NCBI GenBank assembly: GCA_021325435.1
Contig: JAJPHE010000028.1
Span: 1-36,394, forward strand
DNA length: 36,394 nt
Reading direction: 5' to 3'
Source: Actinomycetota bacterium
Lineage (GTDB): Bacteria; Actinomycetota; Acidimicrobiia; Acidimicrobiales; JAJPHE01
This document shows, in pieces, positions 7,104-36,394 of the stretch. Positions within the stretch are counted from its first letter, which is position 1. Each line of letters opens with the position of its first letter. Below the pieces are notes generated by a model. It saw only the letters and a program-made list of their open reading frames with translations, had not been told where the DNA came from and searched no databases. The translations under genes and the position numbers were made by a program.

Positions 7104-7625
7104 GTTGGCGACGGCGCGCGATACGTGCCGATCTCCGTCGAGTACGCGGCCGGTGCCATGCGCGCGGAAATACCGGGGCCGGTGATACCGGGGCGGGTCG
7201 CCAGAATGGCCCACCCGCTCGACACGTCAGTGGATCGTGGGCTTGCCGTCGAAAAAGTCCTGGAGGCGGTCCAGTGTCAGAGGCCTCTCTTCGAATCGAA
7301 CGCCTGCGGGTGAGCCATCCGGCCGACGACGACAACCTATCGGAAGCGAGCACGGAGCCTCTGAGGTCCCCTGGCCGCCCGGTCGCCGAGAACGACTCGG
7401 AAGCGACGTTCATGCCGTGCCCATCGGTCCCGGCCTGGGGAGCGGCCGGCCAGGGGCGGAGGTCGAGTGACACCGCCGGGGGGCCGATCAAGGGGCCGTG
7501 AATCCGGTTCGGCTTTCCGTCTCCGCCTGTTACGCCGCTGATGCGGCCGCGGTTCGGATCCCTACCGGACTGCCGGGGTTCGGGTTCAATACCCGGTGAG
7601 AATTCCCAGGAGTGGGAGGAGCGAG
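7104..7625. other. stretch without a supported gene before tRNA-Leu
   Basis: No recognisable protein. A plus-strand frame at 7274-7501 (75 residues, GTG start) has moderately GC-rich third positions but no known motif, so I leave it uncalled. A near-tandem ATACCGGGGC occurs at 7170-7179 and 7185-7194. A short T-arm-like stem (7570-7590) lacks the rest of a tRNA. The stretch could be the scar of a lost element between the excisionase-like gene and the tRNA. Confidence 0.4.
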
Positions 7626-11518: not shown

Positions 11519-12525
11519 CAGGCCCGCACCCGGGTCTGGCGGGGGTCGAAGGCGTCACGCAACCCGTCGCCGATGAAGTTGACACACAACACGATGACGA
11601 CGAGGAAGATGGCAGGGAAGGCGAACAGCCACCACTCGGTCGTGGCCGCCCCCTGGTTCTGGCTGATCAGCAGACCCAACGAGGTCTGGGGAGGCTGGAC
11701 CCCGAGCCCGAGGAACGAGAGAGTGGACTCGAGCAAGATGGCCGTGGCCACCGACAGTGTCGTGTTGACGATGATCGGCCCCACCGCGTTGGGGAGGAGG
11801 TGGCGGAGGATGATGCGTCCGTCGCCGGCGCCGAGGGCCCGGGCCGCCTCGATGAAGTCACGCTCGCGCAACGACAGAAGCGCTCCCCGCACCAGCCGGG
11901 CCACGGAGGTCCAGATGACAAACCCGATTATCAGACCGATGAACAACCAGCTGCCAGCGTGTCGGGCCGCCTGACGGGACAGGACCAGGAGGATAGCGAG
12001 GATCGGGATGGTGAGGATGAGGTCGGTGAACCGCATGAGAAAGGCCTCCGGCCAGGAGCGGTAGTACCCGGCCAGAGCGCCGATGGCGACGCCGATGACC
12101 ATGCTCACCGCCGCCACCACCAGCGACAACTCGATGGAGGTCAGCGACGCCCGCATCACCTGGGCGAACATGTCGTGGCCCACGCCATCGGTGCCGAACG
12201 GGTGACCGCCGGTCGGCCCGCTGTTGAGGGCATCGGTCAGCTGCGAGTAGGTGTAGGGCCACAGTCGCGAGCCGATCTCGTCGAGCAGCAGGATGGCCAC
12301 GAACAGCACCAGGCTGGCCATGGCCAGCCGGTGTCGGAGGAACCGGCGGAGGATGGCCCGGCCCTGGCTGCGGGCGGCCACGGCCGCCACCGAGGTGTCG
12401 ACGAACGACTCGGGGGACGGCATCGCCTCAACCGGGGCGGTGGAGCCCCCCACGCCGGTGCTCGGCGCCGGAGCCCCGGTCGCCGGATCGGTGGCCCCCC
12501 CGAGGAGCCCGGGGTTGTCAGGCAT
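11518..12525 (-). CDS. dppC: peptide ABC transporter permease DppC/OppC type
   Basis: 335 residues. About 70 N-terminal residues are Pro/Ala/Gly-rich and probably cytoplasmic, followed by the first membrane span (LAMASLVLFVAILLLDEIG). The periplasmic loop HPFGTDGVGHDMFAQVM is a strong DppC signature, and the EAA loop is seen as EAARALGAGDGRIILRHLLPN. Five or six spans in all. It pairs with DppB to make the peptide channel. ATG overlaps the dppB stop by 8 bases (ATGCCTGA). Confidence 0.92.
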   Translation of the reverse strand: MPDNPGLLGGATDPATGAPAPSTGVGGSTAPVEAMPSPESFVDTSVAAVAARSQGRAILRRFLRHRLAMASLVLFVAILLLDEIGSRLWPYTYSQLTDALNSGPTGGHPFGTDGVGHDMFAQVMRASLTSIELSLVVAAVSMVIGVAIGALAGYYRSWPEAFLMRFTDLILTIPILAILLVLSRQAARHAGSWLFIGLIIGFVIWTSVARLVRGALLSLRERDFIEAARALGAGDGRIILRHLLPNAVGPIIVNTTLSVATAILLESTLSFLGLGVQPPQTSLGLLISQNQGAATTEWWLFAFPAIFLVVIVLCVNFIGDGLRDAFDPRQTRVRA

Positions 12526-16598: not shown

Positions 16599-17724
16599 CC
16601 ATCGCCCCCCGCCGCAGGGCCACCAGCCCCGGGAGGTCGCCCTTCTCGATCAGCTCCAGGGACGCCCCCCCGCCGGTCGACACGAAGTCGACCCGGTCGG
16701 CCAGGTCGAAACGGTCGATGGCGGCGGCCGAGTCGCCGCCCCCGACGACCGTGAACCCCCGGCAGTCCGCAACCGCCTCGGCGACGGTCCTCGTGCCGGC
16801 GGCGAAGCGGTCGTCTTCGAACATGCCCATCGGGCCGTTCCACAGCACCGTGCGGGCGTTGGCGATCTCGTCGGAGAACTCGGCCGCCGAGCCCGGGCCG
16901 ATGTCGAGCCCCTTCCAGCCGGACGGGACGGTCCGGCCCACCTGGCGGACCTCCTCCCCGTCCGGGGCGAGGGCGACGATGTCGGTCGGCAGCATGATGC
17001 GCCGTCCGGAGTCCAGCAGCTGCCGGCAGGCCTCCACCTGGTCGGGCTCGACCAGCGACTCCCCGACCTGATGGCCGAGGGCGACGAGGAAGGTGAAGCA
17101 CATGCCGCCCCCCACCACGACCACGTCGACCCGTTCGAGGAGGGCCCGGATGACGCCGAGCTTGTCGCTGACCTTGGCCCCGCCGAGGATGGCGGCGAAC
17201 GGTCGGCCGGGCCGGTCGAGCAGGCCGCCGAGAACCTCCACCTCGCGGGCGAGCAGGCGGCCGGCCGCGGCCGGAAGCCGGGTGGGCGGCCCGACGATCG
17301 ACGCATGGGCCCGGTGCGAGGACCCGAAGGCGTCGTTGACGTACAGGTCCTGGCCGGCCACCAGCTCGTCCACGAAGGTCGGGTCGTTGGCCTCCTCCCG
17401 AGGGTCGAACCGGAGGTTCTCCGTGAGCTTCACCCCGGGGACCAGCTCCTCCAGCCGTCGGCGGACCGGATCCATGGAGTAGCGGGGATCGGGCTTGCCC
17501 TTGGGGCGCCCGAGGTGGCTGCAGACGGTCACCTCGGCGGCCCCCTTGTCGAGCAGCCAGGTCAGGGTGGGCACCGCCGCCCGGATCCGGCGGTCGTCCT
17601 CGATCACGCCGTCGGCGAGAGGCACGTTGAAGTCGGCGCGTACCAGCACCCGCTTGCCGGCCGGGTCGGGCAGATCCTCGAGCTGTGGAACGGGTCGGAC
17701 GACGACCGGCGGCGAGCTAGCCAC
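16591..17724 (-). CDS. pgk: phosphoglycerate kinase
   Basis: Transfers phosphate from 1,3-bisphosphoglycerate to ADP. 377 residues, slightly shorter than the usual 390-400. Motifs: KRVLVRADFNVPL (about 24-36), the HLGRPKG hinge-side motif, the nucleotide-site AILGGAKVSDKLG, WNGPMGMFE, and the C-terminal GGGDSAAAI and STGGGASLELI. The GTG start overlaps the gap stop by 8 bases (GTGGCTAG). Confidence 0.97.
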
Positions 17725-24407: not shown

Positions 24408-25520
24408 ATGCTCCGTCTTCAGACGCCGTTGCCCGACGCGTACACCATGGCGACGCCAGAAGAGCTCGCGGACCGAATCCGGGTTGCCAAGGACACCCTC
24501 GGCCCCCGGCTCCTGATCCTCGGTCACCACTACCAGCGCGACGAGGTGATGCGCTGGGCCGATGCCCGGGGCGACTCCTTCGGCCTCTCCCGCATCGCCG
24601 CTGACCGCCACGACGCCGAGTTCGTCGTCTTCTGCGGGGTCCACTTCATGGCTGAGTCCGCCGACATCCTGACCGGCCCCCACCAGAAGGTGATCCTCCC
24701 CGACCTGAACGCCGGCTGCTCCATGGCGGACATGGCCGACCTCGACGAGGTGGAGGACGCCTGGGAGTCCCTCGCCGAGGTCACCGACGTCGAGCGGATC
24801 GTGCCGATCACTTACATGAACTCATCGGCCGCCCTGAAGGCCTTCGTGGGACGCCACGGAGGCGCTGTGTGCACGTCCTCCAACGCCAGAGCCGTTCTCA
24901 CCTGGGCACTGGGCCTCGACGGCTCGGAACCCCAGGGGGACAAGGTCCTCTTCTTCCCCGACCAGCACCTCGGGCGCAACACGGGCTACCAGCTCGGCTT
25001 CGGGGAAGCGGACATGCGGGTGTGGAATCCTCGCCAGGATGTCGGGGGCCTGGACGAACGGGACGTGAAGGAGGCGACCTTCCTCCTGTGGAAGGGGCAC
25101 TGCTCGGTCCACCAGCGCTTCCGGCCGGAGCACATTAAGGCGTTCCGCAAGGAGCATCCCGACGGCATCGTCGTGGTCCATCCTGAGTGCGCCCACGAGG
25201 TGGTGAAGCTCGCCGACCGGGTGGGGTCGACTGACTACATCATCAAGGCCGTGGCCGCCGCGCCCCCCGGCTCCGTCATAGGCGTTGGCACCGAGATCCA
25301 TCTCGTGCAGCGCCTTAACAACGAGACATCCGACAAGACTGTTGTGTCACTGGATCCGCTAATCTGTCCGTGCTCGACCATGTTCCGGATCGACGCGGCG
25401 CATCTGAGCTGGGTGCTGGATAACCTGATCGAAGGCAAGGCCACCAACCAGATTTCGGTCAATGCCGAAGTTGCTCACCTAGCCAAACTCGCTCTCCAAC
25501 GAATGCTAGATATCGTCTGA
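24408..25520 (+). CDS. nadA: quinolinate synthase NadA
   Basis: Condenses iminoaspartate with dihydroxyacetone phosphate to quinolinate in NAD synthesis, using a [4Fe-4S] cluster. 370 residues. Three cysteines at about 104 (NAGCSM), 232 (WKGHCSVH) and 320 (LICPCSTM) match the spacing of the long B. subtilis-type NadA. LILGHHYQRDEV and MNSSAALKAF are further family motifs. ATG 24408 has AGGAGG 11 bases upstream; in-frame ATGs at 24342 and 24447 are alternatives. nadB and nadC are not nearby. Codon use near the 3' end becomes less GC-rich, like the polysaccharide genes that begin 13 bases later. Confidence 0.95.
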   Translation: MLRLQTPLPDAYTMATPEELADRIRVAKDTLGPRLLILGHHYQRDEVMRWADARGDSFGLSRIAADRHDAEFVVFCGVHFMAESADILTGPHQKVILPDLNAGCSMADMADLDEVEDAWESLAEVTDVERIVPITYMNSSAALKAFVGRHGGAVCTSSNARAVLTWALGLDGSEPQGDKVLFFPDQHLGRNTGYQLGFGEADMRVWNPRQDVGGLDERDVKEATFLLWKGHCSVHQRFRPEHIKAFRKEHPDGIVVVHPECAHEVVKLADRVGSTDYIIKAVAAAPPGSVIGVGTEIHLVQRLNNETSDKTVVSLDPLICPCSTMFRIDAAHLSWVLDNLIEGKATNQISVNAEVAHLAKLALQRMLDIV

Positions 25521-25533
25521 GAGCATCCCTTCG

Positions 25534-26550
25534 GTGATCGCCCCGATCTCCCTCCTTGTACCGACGTATAACGAAGCTGCCAACATCTCCGCTTGCCTCA
25601 AGGCGATAGCACGCCAGACTTATCCCAGTGAGCTGGTCGACGTGGTTCTCATAGATGGACGCTCGACCGACGACACCCTCCTTCAGGCGCGGCAAACCGC
25701 CGATCGCGAAGGACTGAGCATTCGAATCCTTCATAATGAGGCTCGAAGAACGGCCATTGGCTTGAACATCGGCCTGAAACATGCCCAGGGTGACCTTGTC
25801 GCGCGGGTCGATGCACGAAGCCGGATCCCGCCTCACTACTTGCAACTGACTGCCACCCTCCTCGCGTCGAATTCAACTCTTGGAGTCGTCGGAGGTGCCC
25901 AGGTTACGGAGGCCCGCTCATCGAGCATCATTGACCGGGGCGTCGCAAGAGCTCTTCGTAATCGATGGACCACTGGGCTGAGCCGCTATCGACGGCGTTC
26001 ATCGTCGGGGCCGGCGGACACAGTCTGGATGGGTGTATTCCGCGCCGAAGAGCTGCGACGAATAGGAGGCTGGAACGAAAGCTTGGCGATAAACGAGGAC
26101 TTTGAACTCAACAGTCGCTATCGACAACAAGGCAAGATCGTATGGTTCGAAGACTCTCTGTCCACAGCATACGTGCCACGCTCCCCGACGGGATTGGCAC
26201 ATCAGTACTATCGATACGGGAGGCATAAGGGGGCCTTGTGGGTTAGGGGCCAGACTCTCGAACCGCGCCAAGTAGTAGCCCTAGCTGCACCACCGCTTCT
26301 CGCATTGCCTCTGATCACGCTATCTATCCGCAGGCGTAATCCGACCATGTCGTTCGGTCTGGCCCTTGTCTCGCTGCTCGTTGCCGACCACGTCGGAACG
26401 CCCAATGAACGCGCTGAACTCAGTGTAAGGCTGATGAGCGCGACAACCATTGCCCTCTATTGCACATCATGGTGGATCGGGACTGTCGTTGGAGCTGCGG
26501 ATGAGTGCTACTCATCCTCCTCACCAGGATCCGCAGCTCCTCGGACATAG
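25534..26550 (+). CDS. family 2 glycosyltransferase, ExoA-like
   Basis: 338 residues. The GT-A nucleotide-sugar domain opens with ISLLVPTYNEAANISACLKAI, continues with DVVLIDGRSTDDTL and has the metal-site region GDLVARVDARSRIPP; the late INEDFELNSRYRQQGKIVWFED matches the ED motif. Hydrophobic segments at about 250-270, 275-290 and 305-325 would anchor it in the membrane. It resembles succinoglycan ExoA-type transferases. The GTG start is 13 bases after nadA and its last 43 bases overlap the convergent next gene. Confidence 0.85.
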   Translation: MIAPISLLVPTYNEAANISACLKAIARQTYPSELVDVVLIDGRSTDDTLLQARQTADREGLSIRILHNEARRTAIGLNIGLKHAQGDLVARVDARSRIPPHYLQLTATLLASNSTLGVVGGAQVTEARSSSIIDRGVARALRNRWTTGLSRYRRRSSSGPADTVWMGVFRAEELRRIGGWNESLAINEDFELNSRYRQQGKIVWFEDSLSTAYVPRSPTGLAHQYYRYGRHKGALWVRGQTLEPRQVVALAAPPLLALPLITLSIRRRNPTMSFGLALVSLLVADHVGTPNERAELSVRLMSATTIALYCTSWWIGTVVGAADECYSSSSPGSAAPRT

Positions 26551-28730
26551 CCCGGCACCCCTTTCACCTCCTCGAGAAACCCCGTCCAAGAGTGCTGCGT
26601 TGCGAGCCTTCGATAGGCGCCGCGCCGAAGCTCGTCGATCAGCTGAGGCTGATCCAGCACTCTCGCGAGCGCTTGCGTGTACTGATCGACATCGTCATAC
26701 GGAGAGACAAGGAGACCGGACTCACCTCCCCTGACGAACTCGGGAATCGCACCACTGTCGGATGACACAATCGCTAGGCCAGCCGCTGCCGCCTCGAGGA
26801 CGACATTTGGAAGACCATCCCATTCGGAAGTGTTGAGGAACACGTCGAACTCCGGGGGGTTGAGGTCACTAAACTCGTTATACGCTCCGCGGAACCTAAT
26901 GCCCGCACGACGCATTTCATTCCGAGTAGCAGCAGGGTCGAGTAGACCATAACCGTAGGCCGTAAATTCGATCGCTAGTCCTTTGCACGCTCGCGCTACC
27001 GCAACCAGGAGGTCAGGCCTCTTCTGGCGGTCCAACCGACCGGCCCACAGAACCCGCAGTCGTCGCGATTCTGGTAGCTGGGCGGCTGGCCTGGGTGGCG
27101 CCGCATCTATCGGCTGGTAGTGCACGTGAAGCCGCGACTCTTCAATACCAAAAAGACGCTGCAGCATCGATAGTGTCTTCCGTCCGTCTGAGAAGACGGC
27201 CGTCAGATAAGGCTCGACCTCCGGTAGGCCTGAGACAATATGTCCTGTGATTTCACCTTCTCGGGTCCTGTCCTCACAGAAGACTGAGGCCACGAGCGAC
27301 ATTGTGCTACTCAACGCTACCCCGTACTCGGCAATGGCCCCATATGCCATCCCGGAGTTGAACACGTGCGCCACTCGCGCTCGCGATTGCACAAGGTAGA
27401 GTGCGAGCGCTCGCTCCTGCTGCCGAGTGTTCAGTCTCCTAGCGACACTCCCGAACTCCAGGAGAGCAACGTCGCTAGGTAGCCGTGTTCGCCAGGGCGA
27501 TTCCGTGTCCTCAGTCGTCATCACGACCGGTCGGGCGCCAAGCGCACGCAAGGCCCTCGCATAGTTGAGGAGTTCCAGGTCCGACCCACCCCGCTTTACC
27601 CAGGGGGCGATGAGGATGTGGGTGACATCGCTGGGCGTGGCCGCAAGCAACTGTCCTACAGTCTCCCCAAGCGGTGAGGCAGGAAGCGCTACATATTGCG
27701 GGCTTGAAGCGACCCGCGAGTTTGGAAAGAGTGATGGCTCAATCAGATGCGCACGCATGAGATCATGCCGAAGCCACAACGGCAGTCTTCGGCGCGCGAT
27801 GAATCGATCGACTGTAAGAAGTCCGCGTCGAACCCCTAGTGCGAGCGGGGCCAGTTCCGGATGTCTAAGCACGACTCGCCTACCGCTCGCCTCGAGCCGC
27901 CGGCGCATCGTTGTGATGGATTGATGGTTTCGGTGATCAGTCGTTACGTCTTGTCGTTCGCTCGGTGGATCTCGATCCAAGTGCATGCCGGGGCCAAAGA
28001 GCTTTGTGGGAGCCGGTAGGGCCGGACCTCGATCAGCACTGAGAGATTCGCGTCGCGCACGGTAGTAGCCGCAGGTGCCGGGGACTACCTCTACGGTCCC
28101 CCCTCCGGCCAAGACATCGCAGTTCCAGGTCCAGTCCTCGTGGAAAGCCTGGCGAGCGGGCATCGAACGGAATGGGAGTGCAGTCAGGAGTTCCCGCGGA
28201 GCCATAAGATGGAGTGCCCAACCATTTCGCTCCATCAATCCGCTCGCGCGAAAGTGTTGACTTGTAGCCGATACCTGCCACATCAATTCATTCTGCGTTC
28301 CGAAAACGACTATCACCTCGGGACGAAGCACAGTCTTCAAGAGGCCCGATCGCACAAATAGAGCATGACCCTTAGTGAGCCAGGCCTCGGATAGGAGATC
28401 ATCCCCGTCTAACAGCGCTACATACTCTCCTCGCGATCGTTCGATGCCATGGTTGCGAGCCTGTCCAGGGTCTCCGAGATCAAGATGGGTCACATGGTGA
28501 CCAGCGCCGCTGAGTCGCGTACCAAGCCGCTCCGTCGGGTCATCTGGACGGTCGAGAACAACTATAAGCTCACCCGATGCCCCCGCTTCGTTGGTCAGTC
28601 TCTCCAGCGCAGCTGTGGCGCTCATCACGGCTCTGTGCAGCAGCAATCCTTCTGAATGAGCGGTTATGACTACGGAGACCGCTGGATTGGCTACTGGGGT
28701 TGGAACCGGTGCGACAAAGTCATTCTGCAT
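26508..28730 (-). CDS. two-domain glycosyltransferase, GT2 fused to GT4
   Basis: 740 residues. The N-terminal GT2 domain shows SVVITAHSEGLLLHRAV (19-35), ELIVVLDRPDDP and the metal-binding LLDGDD (about 106-111). After a middle region the C-terminal half is GT4/GT-B: RVLWAGRLDRQKRPDLLVAV (about 559-578) and SEWDGLPNVVLEAAAAG (about 635-651), then GESGLLVSPYDD. Two catalytic domains in one chain suggest that it adds two sugars in succession. It runs against the other polysaccharide genes and overlaps the GT2 gene tail to tail. The C-terminus is acidic (PGEEDE). Confidence 0.85.
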   Translation of the reverse strand: MQNDFVAPVPTPVANPAVSVVITAHSEGLLLHRAVMSATAALERLTNEAGASGELIVVLDRPDDPTERLGTRLSGAGHHVTHLDLGDPGQARNHGIERSRGEYVALLDGDDLLSEAWLTKGHALFVRSGLLKTVLRPEVIVVFGTQNELMWQVSATSQHFRASGLMERNGWALHLMAPRELLTALPFRSMPARQAFHEDWTWNCDVLAGGGTVEVVPGTCGYYRARRESLSADRGPALPAPTKLFGPGMHLDRDPPSERQDVTTDHRNHQSITTMRRRLEASGRRVVLRHPELAPLALGVRRGLLTVDRFIARRRLPLWLRHDLMRAHLIEPSLFPNSRVASSPQYVALPASPLGETVGQLLAATPSDVTHILIAPWVKRGGSDLELLNYARALRALGARPVVMTTEDTESPWRTRLPSDVALLEFGSVARRLNTRQQERALALYLVQSRARVAHVFNSGMAYGAIAEYGVALSSTMSLVASVFCEDRTREGEITGHIVSGLPEVEPYLTAVFSDGRKTLSMLQRLFGIEESRLHVHYQPIDAAPPRPAAQLPESRRLRVLWAGRLDRQKRPDLLVAVARACKGLAIEFTAYGYGLLDPAATRNEMRRAGIRFRGAYNEFSDLNPPEFDVFLNTSEWDGLPNVVLEAAAAGLAIVSSDSGAIPEFVRGGESGLLVSPYDDVDQYTQALARVLDQPQLIDELRRGAYRRLATQHSWTGFLEEVKGVPGYVRGAADPGEEDE

Positions 28731-28916
28731 TCATCTGTTCCTAGCGCGCGCAACCGAGTCGAACCCTCATCGACAATGAGGGCCCGCCGTCGGCACACGA
28801 TACTGTGCATCTCGCTCTATAGGACGCATGCCAATGGGCATTCCGGGGCGTCATGGGCCGCGGCTGGGTCGAGACCCGTCCGTGCCAATCGCGAACTGGG
28901 CGTCTAGCGTCAAGTC
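28731..28916. promoter_or_regulatory. divergent intergenic region of the polysaccharide cluster
   Basis: Separates the minus-strand fusion glycosyltransferase from the plus-strand exporter genes and must hold both promoters. On plus, TAGCGT (28905-28910) lies 6 bases before the Wzm ATG, with a weak -35 GTGCCA 17 bases upstream, suggesting a leaderless mRNA. On minus, AGGAA precedes the fusion gene ATG. Confidence 0.35.
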
Positions 28917-29744
28917 ATGAGTAGTGCCGTGACCTACGACTCGACTGAGCGCCGAACAGCATTGGTGAGCGAGTTTCGGGACATTTGGTCTCGTCGCGGT
29001 CTTCTCGGGCTCCTTGTCGTCCGAAATTTAACCATCCGATACAAACGCTCGCTTCTAGGTGTCTGGTGGACCGCACTCAATCCACTCCTCACAGTGGCGA
29101 TCATGTTCTTGGTCTTTAGCAGGGTATTTCGGTTGGCAACTCCTGGTCAGCCCTATGTCGTCTATCTACTTAGCGGTGTTCTGTTGGTCTCCTTCTTTAG
29201 CCAAGGTGTAACTCAGTGCGCCTTCTCGATAATTGGAAGCTCCGGGGTCTTAAAGAAACTCTATGTGCCCCCCGAACTCTTCTCCCTCTCCGCTGGCTTG
29301 GCGGCGGCTATCACATTCGGAATTAGCCTTATACCGCTACTGATTGTGCAACTCGTCGTGGGGGTCGGCGTGCCTTGGACCTTCATGCTGACCCCGATAC
29401 CTATCGTCTTCATGGTTATCTTCATTACAGGAATAGGATTATTGGTCGCCGCAGCCGCGGTCTATTTTTATGACATCTTCGAGATTGCGAACGTGGCCCT
29501 TCAACTAATTGCCTATCTGACCCCGACATTCTACCCAGCGTCAATAGTGCCCGTACACTTGCGGTGGGCCGTTGACATCAACCCCTTGTTCTCTTTCCTG
29601 CAAGTCTTTCGCGGTCTGGCTTACCAGCAACATATAGTTTCCTGGCACTGGTACGCCGGAATGGGGGCCTATTCACTAGCTGCCTTACTAGTGGGTACGC
29701 GGCTATTCCGTCGCTCTTGGAAGAATCTCGTCGTGCTGTTGTGA
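28917..29744 (+). CDS. wzm: polysaccharide ABC exporter permease, Wzm type
   Basis: 275 residues of the ABC-2 membrane family. The cytoplasmic N-terminal FRDIWSRRGLLGLLVVRNLTIRYKRSLLGVWW, with a charged coupling segment before the first span, is typical of Wzm/TagG. Six spans follow (for example NPLLTVAIMFLVFSRVF and YVVYLLSGVLLVSFFSQGV), and the PTFYPASIVP loop and NPLFSFLQVFR are conserved. It would move a lipid-linked glycan across the membrane with the Wzt ATPase, whose start overlaps its stop. Confidence 0.9.
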   Translation: MSSAVTYDSTERRTALVSEFRDIWSRRGLLGLLVVRNLTIRYKRSLLGVWWTALNPLLTVAIMFLVFSRVFRLATPGQPYVVYLLSGVLLVSFFSQGVTQCAFSIIGSSGVLKKLYVPPELFSLSAGLAAAITFGISLIPLLIVQLVVGVGVPWTFMLTPIPIVFMVIFITGIGLLVAAAAVYFYDIFEIANVALQLIAYLTPTFYPASIVPVHLRWAVDINPLFSFLQVFRGLAYQQHIVSWHWYAGMGAYSLAALLVGTRLFRRSWKNLVVLL

Positions 29745-30481
29745 CAGAATTAGCGGTCAACATCGAAGGCGTATCCCTCGCATATCGGATGGCGCATAAC
29801 CGAGCTGCATCCCTCAAGGAGTTTGCAGTACATCTCGTGCGGCGCCAGATCCGGTACGAGCAGTTCTACGCGCTGAAACAGATCGATCTAAAGGTCCCCG
29901 CCCATGAATTTCTTGGCGTTGTGGGTGCTAACGGGGCAGGTAAGAGCACGTTGATGAAGATCATTGCTCGAGTCCTACCCCCGACCGAGGGTCGGATTGC
30001 AGTTCGGGGAACAGTCGCCCCAATGATCGAACTCGCGGCTGGGTTGGACAATGAGCTCACAACAGCGGAGAACGTCGTGCTCTATGGAAGCTTGCTTGGC
30101 CGATCGCCGCGAGAAATGCGCCAGCGTGTGGACCGCATCCTCGAGTGGGCCGAGCTTGAAGACTATGCAGATGTTCCGGTGCGGAGTTTTTCGAGCGGAA
30201 TGCTCGCCCGACTTGGCTTCGCGGTCGCAACCGATGTAGACCCCGACATCTTGGTGGTTGACGAGGTGCTCGCCGTAGGTGATCAGGCATTTCAGCACCG
30301 CTCTACCGAGCGCATCCAAGAGCTGATGCGGCAAGGAACAACGGTAATCTTTGTGTCACACGACCTCTCTACAATCCGGTCTCTTGCAAGCAGCACACTG
30401 TGGCTGGACCGCGGTGAGATCCGGATGTGCGGTCCGACAGAGGACGTCGTCACTCAGTACGAGCAGTCTGCGTCTCTGTGA
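29741..30481 (+). CDS. wzt: polysaccharide ABC exporter ATPase, Wzt type
   Basis: 246 residues from GTG 29741, which overlaps the wzm stop as GTGA. Walker A is GANGAGKST (62-70), the signature is FSSGMLARL (150-158), Walker B is ILVVDEVLAVGD (170-181) and the switch is His207. The N-terminal 50 residues (VSLAYRMAHNRAASLKEF) include the usual Wzt/TagH linker. It lacks the C-terminal carbohydrate-binding domain of O9a-type Wzt, so chain capping is probably not sensed by this protein. Confidence 0.92.
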   Translation: MTELAVNIEGVSLAYRMAHNRAASLKEFAVHLVRRQIRYEQFYALKQIDLKVPAHEFLGVVGANGAGKSTLMKIIARVLPPTEGRIAVRGTVAPMIELAAGLDNELTTAENVVLYGSLLGRSPREMRQRVDRILEWAELEDYADVPVRSFSSGMLARLGFAVATDVDPDILVVDEVLAVGDQAFQHRSTERIQELMRQGTTVIFVSHDLSTIRSLASSTLWLDRGEIRMCGPTEDVVTQYEQSASL

Positions 30482-31689
30482 CGCTACCCAAACTCCCGCC
30501 CGCGCCGGAACCCCCGAACTCTATCGAGGGCCCAACCCTCCTGGTCGTGACTCCCGTAGTACCACCCTCGCCGTCTGGACAGTCTGTCGTTCTCGAACGT
30601 CTCCTAACCGATCCGAGGGGCAAAGTTCTCTATGCAAGTCAAAACCCACCACCGGACGAGATCGGTCGCTCGGACTTCGTGCGGTTACGCATTGCGAAGT
30701 TCCATGGACCGCGCGGCCTCCCTCGGATCTTGCGCATTGCTGCGGCGGTGGTTCGTACGGTTCTGAGCATGACCATTCGCGTTCTAGAGTTGTGCTTGAT
30801 TAGTCATCGATGCGACGTGGACGTGATTGTCGGGTGTACCGCCGGGCCCACGGAGTTGCCTGGGGCTTGGCTCTGCGGACTTATTACGCGCCGACCAGTC
30901 ATTGCTTACCTATTCGATGATCCTGTCTTGCAATGGCCGCCAGGGGCTCAGCGGAGCCTCGCATCGGCACTCGAGCGACTCTGGGCACCCCGGGTCCGCG
31001 CTATAGTCGTTCCGAATGAGGCACTAGCAGAAATGGTTGCGGCGCGCACGTCGAGAGCGACGGTGCTGGTCCGTAACCCTCTGCCTAACGATTTATCTCC
31101 GAGGTTGCAGGTCCGTAGCACGATGACAAAGCCGCTACGGCTCGTGTACACAGGATCCATATACGGGGCCCAGGACGACGCATTTCGTGTCCTGCAGGCG
31201 GCTCTTGAACTTCTTGGTGGTTTCGCTGAGTTGCACGTTTACACCGCCAATACCCAAGCTGAACTCCGGGCAGCTGGCATCACTTCCTCTTTTGTCATTT
31301 GCCACCCGGCTACAGACGCCAAACAGTCCATCGCACTCCAACGAGCCGCCGATGCCCTCTACTTGCCGCTTTCCTTCCATTCAAAGATACCTGAGGTCAT
31401 CAGGACTGCTGCTCCTGCAAAGCTCGGAGAATATCTCGCGAGCGGCCGCCCGATTCTCGTCCATGCGCCCAGCGACTCCTACCTCTCGCGATTCTTTAGA
31501 GAGACCGGCGCTGGTATTGTCGCCGACACCGAGAATCCGTTATTGCTCGCTGACGCCATAAGACACCTCGCATCCGATGACCAAGAGATTATCGATCTAG
31601 CTGCCAGAGCCTCTGACGCCGCCAAACTCTTTGACATCAGTAGTGCTAGACGGCAGTTTTGGGCACTCGTACAGGAAGTAGTGCAATGA
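30478..31689 (+). CDS. GT4-like glycosyltransferase
   Basis: 403 residues from GTG 30478 (GTGA overlap with wzt). GT-B features: an N-terminal Rossmann half (LLVVTPVVPPSPSGQSVVLERLL), a linker VLVRNPLPND, and a C-terminal half with LRLVYTGSIYGAQDDAFRVL, a ...AADALYLPLSF segment and PAKLGEYLASGRPILVHAP, the donor-sugar loop of GT4 enzymes. Donor and acceptor unknown. The codon set includes less common A/T-ending codons, as in its neighbours. Confidence 0.8.
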   Translation: MTLPKLPPAPEPPNSIEGPTLLVVTPVVPPSPSGQSVVLERLLTDPRGKVLYASQNPPPDEIGRSDFVRLRIAKFHGPRGLPRILRIAAAVVRTVLSMTIRVLELCLISHRCDVDVIVGCTAGPTELPGAWLCGLITRRPVIAYLFDDPVLQWPPGAQRSLASALERLWAPRVRAIVVPNEALAEMVAARTSRATVLVRNPLPNDLSPRLQVRSTMTKPLRLVYTGSIYGAQDDAFRVLQAALELLGGFAELHVYTANTQAELRAAGITSSFVICHPATDAKQSIALQRAADALYLPLSFHSKIPEVIRTAAPAKLGEYLASGRPILVHAPSDSYLSRFFRETGAGIVADTENPLLLADAIRHLASDDQEIIDLAARASDAAKLFDISSARRQFWALVQEVVQ

Positions 31690-31816
31690 CGCACCGGCGC
31701 AACTCCGGCAGAGCCCATTACCACTTTCGGCAGCGGTGCAGCGAAATTTCTCTGGTAGATCCACACCTTCGGCCGTCGCTGTGCCTTGTCGGGGCTAGCT
31801 TTTTCCAGGGCGGCAA

Positions 31817-32971
31817 GTGAACCTTCTATTCGTTGCCATGCCCAATAGCCCGCATACTGCAGGATGGCTAAGACTCCTGGCGGGTCGCGGTTGGCGCGTG
31901 ACCGTTGTAGCTCCTGATGCGTCACCTAACATCGAGGGGATACCAGACCGGCGCGCCCGCATCAGGGGAGGCAATCCTGACGGTGTTGCATCGCCGTTAC
32001 CCGGAGCTGCTGGCCGTCAGGTCGAACGCATCCTCGATCGAGCGGTCGGCCCACTGACGTGGAGGGCACACTGGCTAAGTTCAGTCATTAAGCGGGTTCA
32101 GCCTACCCTTATTCACTCCCTCGAGTTTCAGCACTGCGGATACATCTGTCTCCGAGCAAAGCAGCACCGCGCCTCCCTTCCCCCGTGGATAGCCACCAAC
32201 TGGGGGAGCGACATCTCGTATTTTTCCAAGGATCCGTTTCACCGTCGGCAGATTGTCTCGATCTTGCAAGAAGCTGACTATTACGGCGCTGAGTGTCACC
32301 GCGATGTGGAACTAGCCCTAGGGTTGGGCTTCAAAGGTCAGCTATTCCCCGTGGTCCCAAATAACGGCGGGTTCGACCTAGCGTGGGCCAGGTCGCTTGG
32401 CTCTGGACCCCCGTCAACACGGAGGCTCATCATGCTCAAGGGATATGAGCACTTCTCTGGCCGAGCGACCAATGCTCTTGCGGCTATCAGAGACTGCCGC
32501 TCTCTTCTTCGGGGCTACGCCGTGCGCGTGTATTCGGCGGCTCGCTCAGTTCGCCGATTGGCGGATGAACTTCGTCATGAGCACGACATCGACATCGAAT
32601 GCCTGCCGAAGCTAGCTCACGGTCGAATGCTTGCCATGCACGGCTCCGCACGAACTTCCCTATCTATCGGGATCTCCGACGGCATTAGTATTTCGATGCT
32701 TGAGGCGATGGTCATGGGTTCATATCCGATACAATCCGATGGCTCCTGTGCTGGAGAGTGGATCGTGCACCGGCAGACCGGAGCGATCGTAAATGCAGAG
32801 GACGTTGGGGAGATCTCCCGAGAACTCGAACTCGCTCTGACGCACGACGATCTCGTCGACGTGGCTGCGACTGCTAACGCTCGTCTCGCTGATATCCGCC
32901 TAGACCGCGCCTCAATCCGCGAGATTGTACTTGAGGCCTACTCCAGTGCCGCAGGAGATCTACATGTCTAA
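31817..32971 (+). CDS. GT4-like glycosyltransferase
   Basis: 384 residues. The N-terminus (NLLFVAMPNSPHTAGWLRLLAGRGWRVTVVAPD) and the mid-protein IATNWGSDISYFSK, resembling WGSD motifs in GT4-like capsule enzymes, support a GT-B glycosyltransferase; the late SLSIGISDGISISMLEAMVMGSYPIQSD carries the family donor-site pattern. The start is GTG 31817 behind AGGGCGG; 127 bases separate it from the previous gene. Substrates unknown. Confidence 0.75.
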   Translation: MNLLFVAMPNSPHTAGWLRLLAGRGWRVTVVAPDASPNIEGIPDRRARIRGGNPDGVASPLPGAAGRQVERILDRAVGPLTWRAHWLSSVIKRVQPTLIHSLEFQHCGYICLRAKQHRASLPPWIATNWGSDISYFSKDPFHRRQIVSILQEADYYGAECHRDVELALGLGFKGQLFPVVPNNGGFDLAWARSLGSGPPSTRRLIMLKGYEHFSGRATNALAAIRDCRSLLRGYAVRVYSAARSVRRLADELRHEHDIDIECLPKLAHGRMLAMHGSARTSLSIGISDGISISMLEAMVMGSYPIQSDGSCAGEWIVHRQTGAIVNAEDVGEISRELELALTHDDLVDVAATANARLADIRLDRASIREIVLEAYSSAAGDLHV

Positions 32972-32998
32972 CGACATTGAGCAATTCAGCCGACACCC

Positions 32999-33021
32999 GA
33001 GCGAGGAACGTGTCCTCGCTC
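32999..33021 (+). terminator. 9-base stem-loop between glycosyltransferase and reductase genes
   Basis: GAGCGAGGA-ACGTG-TCCTCGCTC, a perfect 9-base stem with a 5-base loop, lies 27 bases after the GT4 gene and 26 before the next ATG. No U-tract follows, so it may be a partial terminator or an mRNA-processing hairpin that sets off the nucleotide-sugar genes. Confidence 0.45.
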
Positions 33022-33046
33022 CAGTGGGTATCGGTCCTATTGGCCA

Positions 33047-33925
33047 ATGAGAGTCCTGGTGCTTGGCGCAGACGGGATGGCGGGACATGTCGTGTTGCGC
33101 CACCTTGCGGCGCGTCACGAAGCCTTCGGTTCCACACGTTCGGTCGAGCCAACCGCTCTTTACACCGCCGAGATCTCCCCTGCCAACATCAAGACGGGGT
33201 TGGACGCGCGGGACTTCGATCAATTCCGGCTGGCAATACAGCTTATCCAGCCTGAAGCCGTCATCAACTGCATAGGCATCGTCAAGCAGCGGACTAGCGA
33301 CAACATCGCCATGCTAGAGGTCAATTCACTTTTCCCTCACCGACTGGCCCTTCTGTGTTCCGAAGTCGGAAGTCGCCTCATCCACCTCAGTACCGATTGC
33401 GTATTTTCTGGCCGTCGCGGACTATACACTGAGGCAGATCTGCCGGACCCAAGCGATTTCTACGGAGTCTCCAAGCTAGCCGGCGAGGTAACACCGGTCC
33501 CAGCCCTAACCCTTCGAACATCGATTATCGGGTTAGAACTCGTTCGTCGCACATCACTGATTGAGTGGTCTCTTCGGCAGACCATCAGTGCTCCCGGCTA
33601 CACCAAAGCCATCTTCTCTGGCTTGACTACTCAAGAACTGGCTCGGCTCCTAGATCTCATCCTCGTAAGTCAACCGGACCTCACCGGGCTCTGGCACGTC
33701 GCATCCACCCCCATAAGCAAATATCACCTCCTAGGACACTTTTACGACCAGCTTGGTCGAACCGTGACACTCGTACCATCTGATGAGGTCGACTGCGACC
33801 GGAGCCTCGACGGCAGCCGATTTAGTCACCGGACAGGGTATGTGGCGCCGAGTTGGTCGCAGATGCTCGCCGAGCTGGCCTTGGAAGTACACGAACGGGA
33901 GAGACTTTACGATGTTGGACGGTAA
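33047..33925 (+). CDS. RmlD-like nucleotide-sugar reductase (WbvR/WbjC role)
   Basis: 292-residue short-chain dehydrogenase. NAD(P) site is GADGMAG (7-13), the catalytic Ser/Thr lie in LSTDCVFSG and the Tyr139-x3-Lys143 pair is in YGVSKLAGE. In the UDP-L-aminosugar pathways an RmlD-like enzyme reduces a 4-keto intermediate made from UDP-GlcNAc. The cupin domain found in WbjC/CapF (L-FucNAc route) is absent, which fits the WbvR type (L-RhaNAc/L-QuiNAc route) better. The stop lies 14 bases inside the next gene. Confidence 0.8.
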   Translation: MRVLVLGADGMAGHVVLRHLAARHEAFGSTRSVEPTALYTAEISPANIKTGLDARDFDQFRLAIQLIQPEAVINCIGIVKQRTSDNIAMLEVNSLFPHRLALLCSEVGSRLIHLSTDCVFSGRRGLYTEADLPDPSDFYGVSKLAGEVTPVPALTLRTSIIGLELVRRTSLIEWSLRQTISAPGYTKAIFSGLTTQELARLLDLILVSQPDLTGLWHVASTPISKYHLLGHFYDQLGRTVTLVPSDEVDCDRSLDGSRFSHRTGYVAPSWSQMLAELALEVHERERLYDVGR

Positions 33926-34970
33926 GAACATCACCATTACGGGCGGAACCGGATCGCTTGGAAAGGTCTTGGTTCGACGAATTCTGTCAGGCGAAGTCGG
34001 GATACCCGAGAGGGTGCTCATTCTGTCGCGAGACGAGGCGAAGCAACATGAGATGCGGTTGTCATATCAGCATCCGACAACGTCCACTGATGAAATCGTC
34101 TACAACAACTTTCGGCAGCTCCTTCAGTTCCAGATCGGGGACGTCCGAAACTCCACAGACGTTGTCCGGGCGGTGCGAGGGGCCGACATCGTCGTCAATG
34201 CTGCTGCCCTCAAGCAGGTACCTAGCTGCGAATACTTCCCGGAACAGGCGATTTTTACGAACTGCCTGGGCGCAGTAAACGTGTGTGAGAGCATCAGGAC
34301 GCTCGACTATGCGGTCGATGTCGTTGTCGGCGTAAGTACGGATAAGGCCTGCAAGCCCGTAAATGTCATGGGGATGACCAAGGCCGTACAGGAGCGGGTC
34401 TTCTGCGCGGCGAACATTGAATCGACGCACACTCGGTTCGTGACCGTCCGCTATGGCAACGTGCTCGCATCTAGAGGATCGGTCATACCGTTGTTCCTCG
34501 AACAGCTTCGTCGAGGCGGGCCCTTGACGATCACAGATTCTCGGATGACGCGATTTTTGCTAAGCCTTGATGAGGCCGTCGACACTGTCTTCGCCGCCAT
34601 TAGGGACGCACGCCCAGGGGAGACCTTCGTCCCACGTTGCCCCTCAGCAATGGTCACGGACATTGCAGTGGCGCTGATTGGGGCTGCCGCGATACGGACT
34701 GAAGTGACTGGGATCAGGCCCGGCGAGAAGCTTCACGAGATTCTGATCTCTGAGGAAGAGATGCGTCACGTGCGCCGTTCAGGAGGTTTTCTAGCCATAG
34801 TTCCAATGCTTCCCGAACTATCGGGTCACACCCTCTCCGAGCAGCTCGGGTATGAGTTCAGTTCCGCGACATCGCCACTCGCGCTGTCCGAGGTTTCAGC
34901 ATTGCTCGAACGCCACCAGTTGCTGCCGGCTCAGGCGCCCATCGGACACGAGCAGGAGCTACTACGCTGA
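33912..34970 (+). CDS. CapE/WbjB-like UDP-GlcNAc 4,6-dehydratase/5-epimerase
   Basis: 352 residues of the extended SDR family. NAD site GGTGSLG (11-17). The active-site region VSTDKACKPVNVMGMTKAVQERVF has Met in place of the usual catalytic Tyr before x3-Lys, as in CapE. Downstream, FVTVRYGNVLASRGSVIPLF and GIRPGEKLHEILISEEE are typical of the CapD/FnlA class. It should convert UDP-GlcNAc to a 4-keto-6-deoxy-L-sugar. ATG 33912 has GGGAGAG 8-10 bases upstream and overlaps the previous gene. Confidence 0.88.
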   Translation: MLDGKNITITGGTGSLGKVLVRRILSGEVGIPERVLILSRDEAKQHEMRLSYQHPTTSTDEIVYNNFRQLLQFQIGDVRNSTDVVRAVRGADIVVNAAALKQVPSCEYFPEQAIFTNCLGAVNVCESIRTLDYAVDVVVGVSTDKACKPVNVMGMTKAVQERVFCAANIESTHTRFVTVRYGNVLASRGSVIPLFLEQLRRGGPLTITDSRMTRFLLSLDEAVDTVFAAIRDARPGETFVPRCPSAMVTDIAVALIGAAAIRTEVTGIRPGEKLHEILISEEEMRHVRRSGGFLAIVPMLPELSGHTLSEQLGYEFSSATSPLALSEVSALLERHQLLPAQAPIGHEQELLR

Positions 34971-36100
34971 AGATCGTCACCCTGCTGGGCACACGCCCTG
35001 AGGTAATCAAACTCAGTCGGGTCATTGCTGAGCTCGAACGATATTCGGATCACGTGCTCGTTCACTCTGGGCAGAACTACGACCCTCTGCTGAGCGACAT
35101 CTTCTTTGGCGAGCTATCCATCGCCGCTCCCTCCTATCACCTTGGTATCGGAACTGAGTTTGGGGCTGCTGCAGCGATTGGTCATGTCATTTCCCGCTTC
35201 GATGAGGTGCTGACGCGCGAAAGGCCTGACGCTGTCCTGATATACGGCGATACCAATACAGGTCTCGGAGCCATCGCGGCAAGGCGTCGTCGAGTACCAG
35301 TCTTCCACATGGAAGCAGGTAACCGAGCCTTCGACGCTCGAATCCCGGAAGAGGTGAACCGTCGCGTAATCGATCACTTGAGTGATGTCAATATGACCAA
35401 CTCGGAACACGCGAGGCGATACCTAATCATGGAGGGTCTCCGGCCCGAACTCGTACTGAAGACAGGCTCCCCGATGCGGGAGGTCTTGGATCATCATCGG
35501 GAACAGGTCGGCCATTCAGAGATCCTACGGGATCTCAATCTTAGACCCGGTGGCTACTTCGTCGTCTCCGCGCATCGCGAAGAGAACGTCGACGACCCCG
35601 TTCGGCTGAGGTCGTTTGTTGCCACCCTTGAACGGCTCGCAAACGATCACCAGAAGCCCGTTATCGTGTCAACTCACCCTCGGACCCGTGCTCGCCTTGC
35701 CAATGGGATCAATTTCGGAGGCCACGAACTAGTCCGATTCCTCGAACCCTTCTCGTTTAGTAACTACATTCGCCTTCAGACAGAAGCTCTCTGCGTAGTC
35801 TCGGATAGCGGCACCCTCACGGAGGAGGCGTCTCTTCTGGGGTTCCCAGCCGTGATGATACGAGAAGCACACGAACGACCGGAGGGAACCGACGTCGGGG
35901 CTGTTGTCTTCACTCCGATAACCCCAGACTCTGTCGCATCAGCCGTTGATCTCGTCACTACTCAAGGATCACTGGGCGTGAACACAATCACTGACTATTC
36001 ACCCGCCAACGTCTCCAAGGTCGTGGTACGAACTATCGTCAGTTTCGTTCCGTACTTGCGTCGCACGATTTGGTTCGGTGCGCCTCCAATCTTCAGTTGA
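34967..36100 (+). CDS. UDP-HexNAc 2-epimerase, WbjD/FnlC type (CTG start)
   Basis: 377 residues when read from CTG 34967, overlapping the previous stop as CTGA. AGGAG (34954-34958) lies 8 bases upstream. This start yields the family N-terminus KIVTLLGTRPEVIKLSRV; the first ATG/GTG (35054) would remove 29 residues including GTRPE. Further family motifs: YGDTNT (about 93-98), MEAGNRAFDARIPEEVNR (115-132), SAHREENVD (201-209) and SDSGTLTEEA near the C-terminus. The AHREENVD form is characteristic of WbjD/FnlC/CapG rather than WecB. It should invert C2 of the UDP-L-aminosugar made by the two preceding enzymes. Confidence 0.9.
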   Translation: MKIVTLLGTRPEVIKLSRVIAELERYSDHVLVHSGQNYDPLLSDIFFGELSIAAPSYHLGIGTEFGAAAAIGHVISRFDEVLTRERPDAVLIYGDTNTGLGAIAARRRRVPVFHMEAGNRAFDARIPEEVNRRVIDHLSDVNMTNSEHARRYLIMEGLRPELVLKTGSPMREVLDHHREQVGHSEILRDLNLRPGGYFVVSAHREENVDDPVRLRSFVATLERLANDHQKPVIVSTHPRTRARLANGINFGGHELVRFLEPFSFSNYIRLQTEALCVVSDSGTLTEEASLLGFPAVMIREAHERPEGTDVGAVVFTPITPDSVASAVDLVTTQGSLGVNTITDYSPANVSKVVVRTIVSFVPYLRRTIWFGAPPIFS

Positions 36101-36254: not shown

Positions 36255-36394
36255 CTAGTTGCTGAGCCGCTTGACAGCGAGGATATGGGGGTCTACGCGT
36301 CTGAGTAGGGACTGCGCCTGGTTCGGATGCGCGGCGGGCAGGGTCTTGAGGGCCAGGTGACTCCGCCGGCGTGGAGTAGGACTCGGAGCCGGTA
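36255..36394 (-). CDS. possible 3' end of an unidentified gene running off the window
   Basis: A minus-strand frame stays open from the window edge to a TAG at 36257-36255, about 46 codons. Its last residues (LRRVDPHILAVKRLSN) look protein-like, and third positions are mostly G/C in the second half. I do not recognise a family, and so short a piece may be chance. If real, it is convergent with the 2-epimerase gene. Confidence 0.25.
   Translation of the reverse strand, partial: PAPSPTPRRRSHLALKTLPAAHPNQAQSLLRRVDPHILAVKRLSN

Follow-up and report, generated by a model that had tools for sequence, protein, structure and literature searches.

The epimerase gene at 34967–36100 on the forward strand of the window, the stretch of 36,394 nucleotides analyzed here, most probably codes for a complete, non-hydrolysing UDP-HexNAc 2-epimerase of the FnlC/CapG/WbjD type, which would be translated from a CTG codon at 34967 by coupled re-initiation; we put the probability of this reading at about 0.8. 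The CTG start had been proposed in a first-pass annotation of the window and is supported, within the limits of sequence evidence, by four observations. The frame has no canonical start where one is expected, the position of the start is conserved among homologues, the CTG lies behind a Shine–Dalgarno-like sequence and overlaps the stop codon of the upstream gene, and CTG codons are conserved across genera at the starts of other genes. In what follows, G000 denotes the source genome, other G numbers the genomes of relatives, and L numbers stretches of DNA.

The CTG codon and the upstream stop codon

The frame of the epimerase gene is bounded upstream by an in-frame TGA at 34853–34855, and the absence of an ATG, GTG or TTG before the GTG at 35054–35056 (Val30), as first described, is borne out over the whole interval back to that stop. 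Read from the CTG (34967–34969), the protein has 377 residues (34967–36097, with the stop codon at 36098–36100), and 34967 is the maximum of a genome-trained codon score that drops steeply upstream of this position. When the window was given to an ORF finder that accepts ATG, GTG and TTG only, the result was a shortened, 348-residue form beginning at 35054, which is the truncation that had been anticipated for gene callers.

An AGGAG resembling a Shine–Dalgarno sequence (34954–34958) precedes the CTG with a spacer of 8 nt, as initially noted and within the normal range, and the CTG overlaps the stop codon of the fnlA-like gene (TGA, 34968–34970) to form a CTGA at 34967–34970. The same geometry is found, as had been pointed out, at two GTGA stop/start junctions of the same cluster and strand, one between ABC transporter genes (29741–29744), the other between the genes for an ABC ATPase and a glycosyltransferase (30478–30481). 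As in the 4-nt ATGA and GTGA overlaps of coupled genes, the start in the window overlaps the upstream TGA and the Shine–Dalgarno sequence lies inside the upstream gene, and by analogy the epimerase gene may be coupled too; unlike in those overlaps, the first base is a C, and a CTGA, such as results here, does not normally pass for a start.

The enzyme and its gene cluster

The 377-residue reading scores above the cut-off with both PF02350 (273.5 bits; cut-off 30.6) and TIGR00236 (219.3 bits; cut-off 210.15), the latter match extending from position 1. Its best matches in the PDB are a UDP-GlcNAc 2-epimerase (4hwg; E 2.7e-117) and CapG of S. aureus (7ya2; E 3e-102), both of which align over the full length and from residue 1, in agreement with the proposed start. 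The CTG reading carries the GTRPE motif as well as Arg10, Lys15, Asp95, Glu116 and His203, that is, the active-site Arg and Lys of GTRPExxK and the catalytic Asp, Glu and His. In CTG numbering, Arg10 and Lys15 correspond to Arg12 and Lys17 in the active site of the T. thermophilus enzyme and Lys15 to Lys15 of the E. coli enzyme, in which the equivalent of Asp95 also has the same residue number (PMC10622841). The reading from 35054 loses Arg10 and Lys15 together with the first part of the N-terminal Rossmann fold and, judging from the known active-site residues, would give an inactive form.

Upstream of the epimerase gene, and on the same strand, lie genes for an RmlD-type reductase (FnlB/WbvR-like, 292 residues; 33047–33925; PF04321) and for a FnlA/CapE/WbjB-like UDP-GlcNAc dehydratase/epimerase (33912–34970; PF02719). 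Partners of the FnlA and RmlD types also accompany FnlC, CapG and WbjD, and a reductase of the RmlD type, a dehydratase of the FnlA/CapE type and an epimerase form what we take to be the combination of three genes that is usual for a 2-acetamido-2,6-dideoxy-L-sugar. The window gene differs from FnlC, CapG and WbjD in starting with CTG rather than with ATG or GTG, and in the shortness of its partner reductase, which is of the RmlD type only, so that the likeness to these enzymes does not fix the identity of the sugar. Moreover, the FnlA-like protein scores 244 bits with TIGR04130, the FnlA equivalog model, far under the cut-off of 730, and the product could accordingly be FucNAc, QuiNAc or another sugar.

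The polysaccharide cluster (25000–36100) has a GC content of about 56–59%, against about 70% for the genome, which makes acquisition possible; the cluster may have been acquired, perhaps recently. At the end of the window, a sequence of about 106 bp (36290–36394) recurs, with 88–100% identity, in contigs C140, C9 and C131 of the source genome, in each case at a contig end or close to it, and this repeat probably broke the assembly.

Where homologous epimerases start

Each of the 80 homologues taken from named genomes has its canonical start either at the codon aligned with the CTG at 34967 or up to 7 codons before it, and the same holds for the homologue in L006, whose genome belongs to the same order as the source genome. 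Homologues that begin at the position of 35054, which the first-pass annotation had named as the finding that would speak against the CTG, were not encountered among the 80 or in L006. The proteobacterial homologues mostly start one codon upstream of the CTG position (ATG CTT AAG). As to which codon relatives have at the CTG itself, a comparison also proposed at the outset, the nine homologues from the same class all have a canonical start exactly at 34967, ATG in seven and GTG in two.

In two of these nine, L090 and L093, fnlA lies directly upstream and overlaps the epimerase start as ATGA. The 3' end of fnlA reads GAG CTG CTG CGA TGA in L093 and GAG TTG CTG CGA TGA in L090, and that of the fnlA-like gene of the window GAG CTA CTA CGC TGA. 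To judge from these sequences, the overlap between fnlA and the epimerase gene is conserved, and the start codon of the window differs from those of L090 and L093 in its first base only; a C at 34967 in place of the A of ATG leaves the Arg encoded by fnlA unchanged. Moreover, mean identity over 89 homologues is higher for residues 2–29 (63.5%) than for residues 30 to the end (52.7%), which indicates that the N-terminal extension is genuinely coding.

CTG candidates elsewhere in the source genome

A third of the source genome (1.32 Mb) was searched for genes in which coding sequence continues well upstream of the first canonical start. Seven further genes were found in this sample for which a CTG suits the N-terminus of the family and no usable canonical start exists. 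They are mreB (L140:10547-11548, minus strand, CTG at 11548), prmC, which follows prfA (L123:3-368, minus strand, CTG at 368), an MBL hydrolase gene after murI (L142:4579), a second MBL hydrolase gene (L144:2132, minus strand), and the genes for a SAM hydroxide adenosyltransferase (L148:10012), a SpoU-type methyltransferase (L163:11225) and a nuclease-like protein (L179:6810, minus strand). An in-frame stop codon lies 12–118 codons upstream of the CTG; the SpoU-type methyltransferase frame is exceptional in having a distant upstream GTG, located inside the neighbouring gene. For mreB, both MBL hydrolases and the adenosyltransferase, domain matches start a few residues from the CTG, and the N-termini of the SpoU-type methyltransferase, PrmC and the nuclease-like protein were judged from orthologues. 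Six of the seven genes overlap or abut the upstream stop codon (CTGA, CTGGCTAG, CTGGCTGA, TAGACGGCTG), compared with about 24% of all genes; the high share among the seven is partly a product of the design of the search. The mreB gene of G000 has CTGGCTAG at its putative start, with AGGAGG 10 nt before, and its frame has no canonical start from an in-frame stop 43 codons upstream to codon 39.

Three other candidates were set aside. The orfB of an IS3 transposase (L176:2417, CTGA) was rejected, since IS3 orfB is normally expressed through programmed frameshifting, and the genes for a uracil-DNA glycosylase (L097:10739, minus strand) and a heparinase-like protein (L127:9490) were left out because a canonical alternative is close (+18 and -5 codons, respectively).

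Recurrence of CTG in related genera

The junction between prfA and prmC is CTGA, with no canonical start nearby, in G000, G001, G002, G023 and G030; the next canonical start of prmC in G001 is a TTG about 19 codons in, and the only one in G040 is a GTG past the conserved Thr-Trp motif. In all, prmC has the CTG in the source genome and in five other genera (L123, L287, L288, L286, L290 and L299), and other genera of the order have ATG, GTG or TTG at or near the junction. On a tree of RF1, four changes are required to account for the prmC CTG label, and well-supported branches force at least two of them, which makes it probable that the prmC start has switched to or from CTG repeatedly.

The CTG of the nuclease-like gene is present at the same codon, and with no canonical start nearby upstream, in G000, G001, G030, G040 and G056, and miaA of G002 (L356:5786) appears to begin with CTGA and has no alternative start. 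A pattern search places a CTG at codon 1 of mreB in G000 and in 19 of 58 relatives; because the sequences of the relatives were covered from this codon onwards, the mreB CTG start is shown for G000 only, though in G020 the length of the frame leaves at most one codon before the CTG. The closest relative has a GTG at the CTG codon of the MBL hydrolase gene linked to murI, and several genera have ATG or GTG at that of the SpoU-type methyltransferase gene. Since the same CTG occurs in independent assemblies (prmC, the nuclease-like gene and mreB), sequencing error is unlikely as a general explanation; recurrence in relatives thus argues against an artefact for those genes, and is no proof of the base at 34967.

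Counts and translation machinery

Counts of codons are less telling. Among 4-nt overlaps that lack another start (score above 10), the first base in G000 is G in 27, A in 15, T in 5 and C in 4; the same count in 650 kb of a Rhodococcus plasmid gave A in 7, G in 5 and C in none, so that C occurs at 4 of 51 NTGA junctions of G000 versus 0 of 12 in the control. Among 20 orphan genes, 10 have a CTG near the coding boundary, with 6.35 expected. By codon statistics alone, genome-wide enrichment of CTG in the sample of G000 is not significant, and the argument for CTG therefore rests on the comparison of orthologues. Some orphan genes have neither a canonical start nor a CTG near the boundary, where the codon is GTA (L193, minus-strand reading, position 7481), unclear (L097, minus-strand reading, position 17058) or ATC (L172:98), and other causes must therefore exist; these orphans might be due to frameshift errors or to unusual starts of another kind.

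In the initiator tRNA (L140:4-78) all three G-C pairs are present, as is normal, which rules out a permissive, M1-type initiator and means that no special tRNA accounts for the use of CTG. A search of the source assembly for the 3' end of 16S rRNA gave no rRNA match, and no IF3 turned up in the third of the genome that was sampled.

Alternatives to initiation at the CTG

The strongest of the alternatives, and still an improbable one, is that 34967 was miscalled or misassembled, in which case the true codon would be ATG (or GTG) and the gene an ordinary one. One A-to-C difference separates the junction from the ATGA of L090 and L093, and the source genome is an assembly of 160 contigs; however, consensus substitution errors are rare, and errors would not produce the CTG pattern at many other genes and in independently assembled genomes. 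We think it less probable again that the start was lost and that the epimerase gene is dying or silent, with only a weak or truncated product from the GTG at 35054. While the low GC content (about 57% against 70%) and perhaps recent acquisition of the cluster would fit such decay, the frame is intact over 377 codons, residues 2–29 and the catalytic residues are conserved, and the Shine–Dalgarno sequence, the 4-nt overlap and the upstream genes are all intact.

Lower still in our estimation stands initiation one codon upstream of the CTG, at a likewise non-canonical ACG (34964–34966). This codon follows AGGAG by 5 nt, has a codon score nearly equal to that at 34967, and occupies the position of the ATG in most proteobacterial homologues. 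In contrast, the same-class homologues all start exactly at 34967, two of them with the fnlA overlap there, and what the other cases in the source genome have in common is CTG, not ACG; moreover, the middle base of ACG is mispaired, and bacteria as a rule initiate less well at this codon. Finally, we rejected as highly improbable a fusion of FnlA and the epimerase produced by ribosomes that shift frame at the junction. The two frames do overlap, and that of the epimerase stays open for 37 codons upstream, but there is no slippery heptamer at CTACTACGCTGA and the homologues are separate proteins with a start of their own.

A model for CTG initiation and its significance

Initiation at the CTG of the epimerase gene would then proceed as follows. 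Ribosomes would terminate translation of fnlA at the TGA (34968–34970), would be kept in place by the AGGAG, and would re-initiate on the overlapping CTG with the initiator tRNA, giving an epimerase with the N-terminus Met-Lys-Ile-Val-Thr. An ancestral ATG or GTG at 34967 may have become CTG by substitution (from ATG, the A-to-C change that is silent in fnlA), and the CTG may have been tolerated because the start of the epimerase gene is translationally coupled. That initiation occurs at the CTG, that Met is the first residue and that coupling is the reason is what we infer from the arrangement of the sequence. Switching to CTG seems to have happened repeatedly in the lineage, at prmC, probably at mreB and at other genes, and we read this recurrence as CTG initiation favoured by translational coupling.

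Starts at CTG were initially described as rare. This stands for the bacteria studied so far (PMC11497404; PMC4633059; PMC9094748; PMC5622118), whereas in the present lineage CTG seems to be unusually common. CUG gives 0.86% of AUG expression in E. coli and makes up about 0.024% of starts in other bacteria (Hecht 2017, as cited in PMC11497404). In mycobacteria, CTG is not selected (0.03%; PMC4633059) and not enriched (PMC9094748), and among 61,358 cases reconstructed for other prokaryotes, an ancestral AUG had changed to CUG in only 2 (PMC5622118). CUG is strongly rejected by the machineries of E. coli and mycobacteria, and the yield from the CTG may accordingly be low. Like the rare non-AUG starts of bacteria (CUG, at a fraction of a per cent, and the AUU of E. 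coli infC), the codon is near-cognate; unlike them, it seems to recur in housekeeping genes, is conserved between genera of one order, and has no autoregulatory setting in the genes described here. An incomplete search of the literature found no published report of lineage-wide, recurrent CTG starts.

To judge from the gene order uvrC-rapZ-yvcK-gap-pgk-tpi, the order in question, which comprises many families, probably belongs to the Actinomycetota. We lean, if only somewhat, towards the broader view that CTG serves the whole order regularly as a fourth start codon, mostly at genes that overlap or abut the preceding stop codon, and that prmC, mreB and other core genes have retained CTG or repeatedly switched to it across genera. 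Possibly, termination–reinitiation relaxes the selection of the start codon.

Gene finders usually disallow CTG, and genes that start with it are therefore truncated by 20–60 residues or missed; in the source genome, such misannotation would hit MreB, PrmC and the epimerase. In practice, there is a case for permitting CTG at stop/start overlaps when genomes of this group are annotated. The comparisons suggest that CTG, believed to serve hardly ever as a start codon in bacteria, has been so used repeatedly in this group, and that gene finders have missed it. If this is true, a lineage with recurrent and conserved CTG starts would be a natural system in which to study the fidelity of start-codon selection and the parts played in it by initiation factors, rRNA and coupling.
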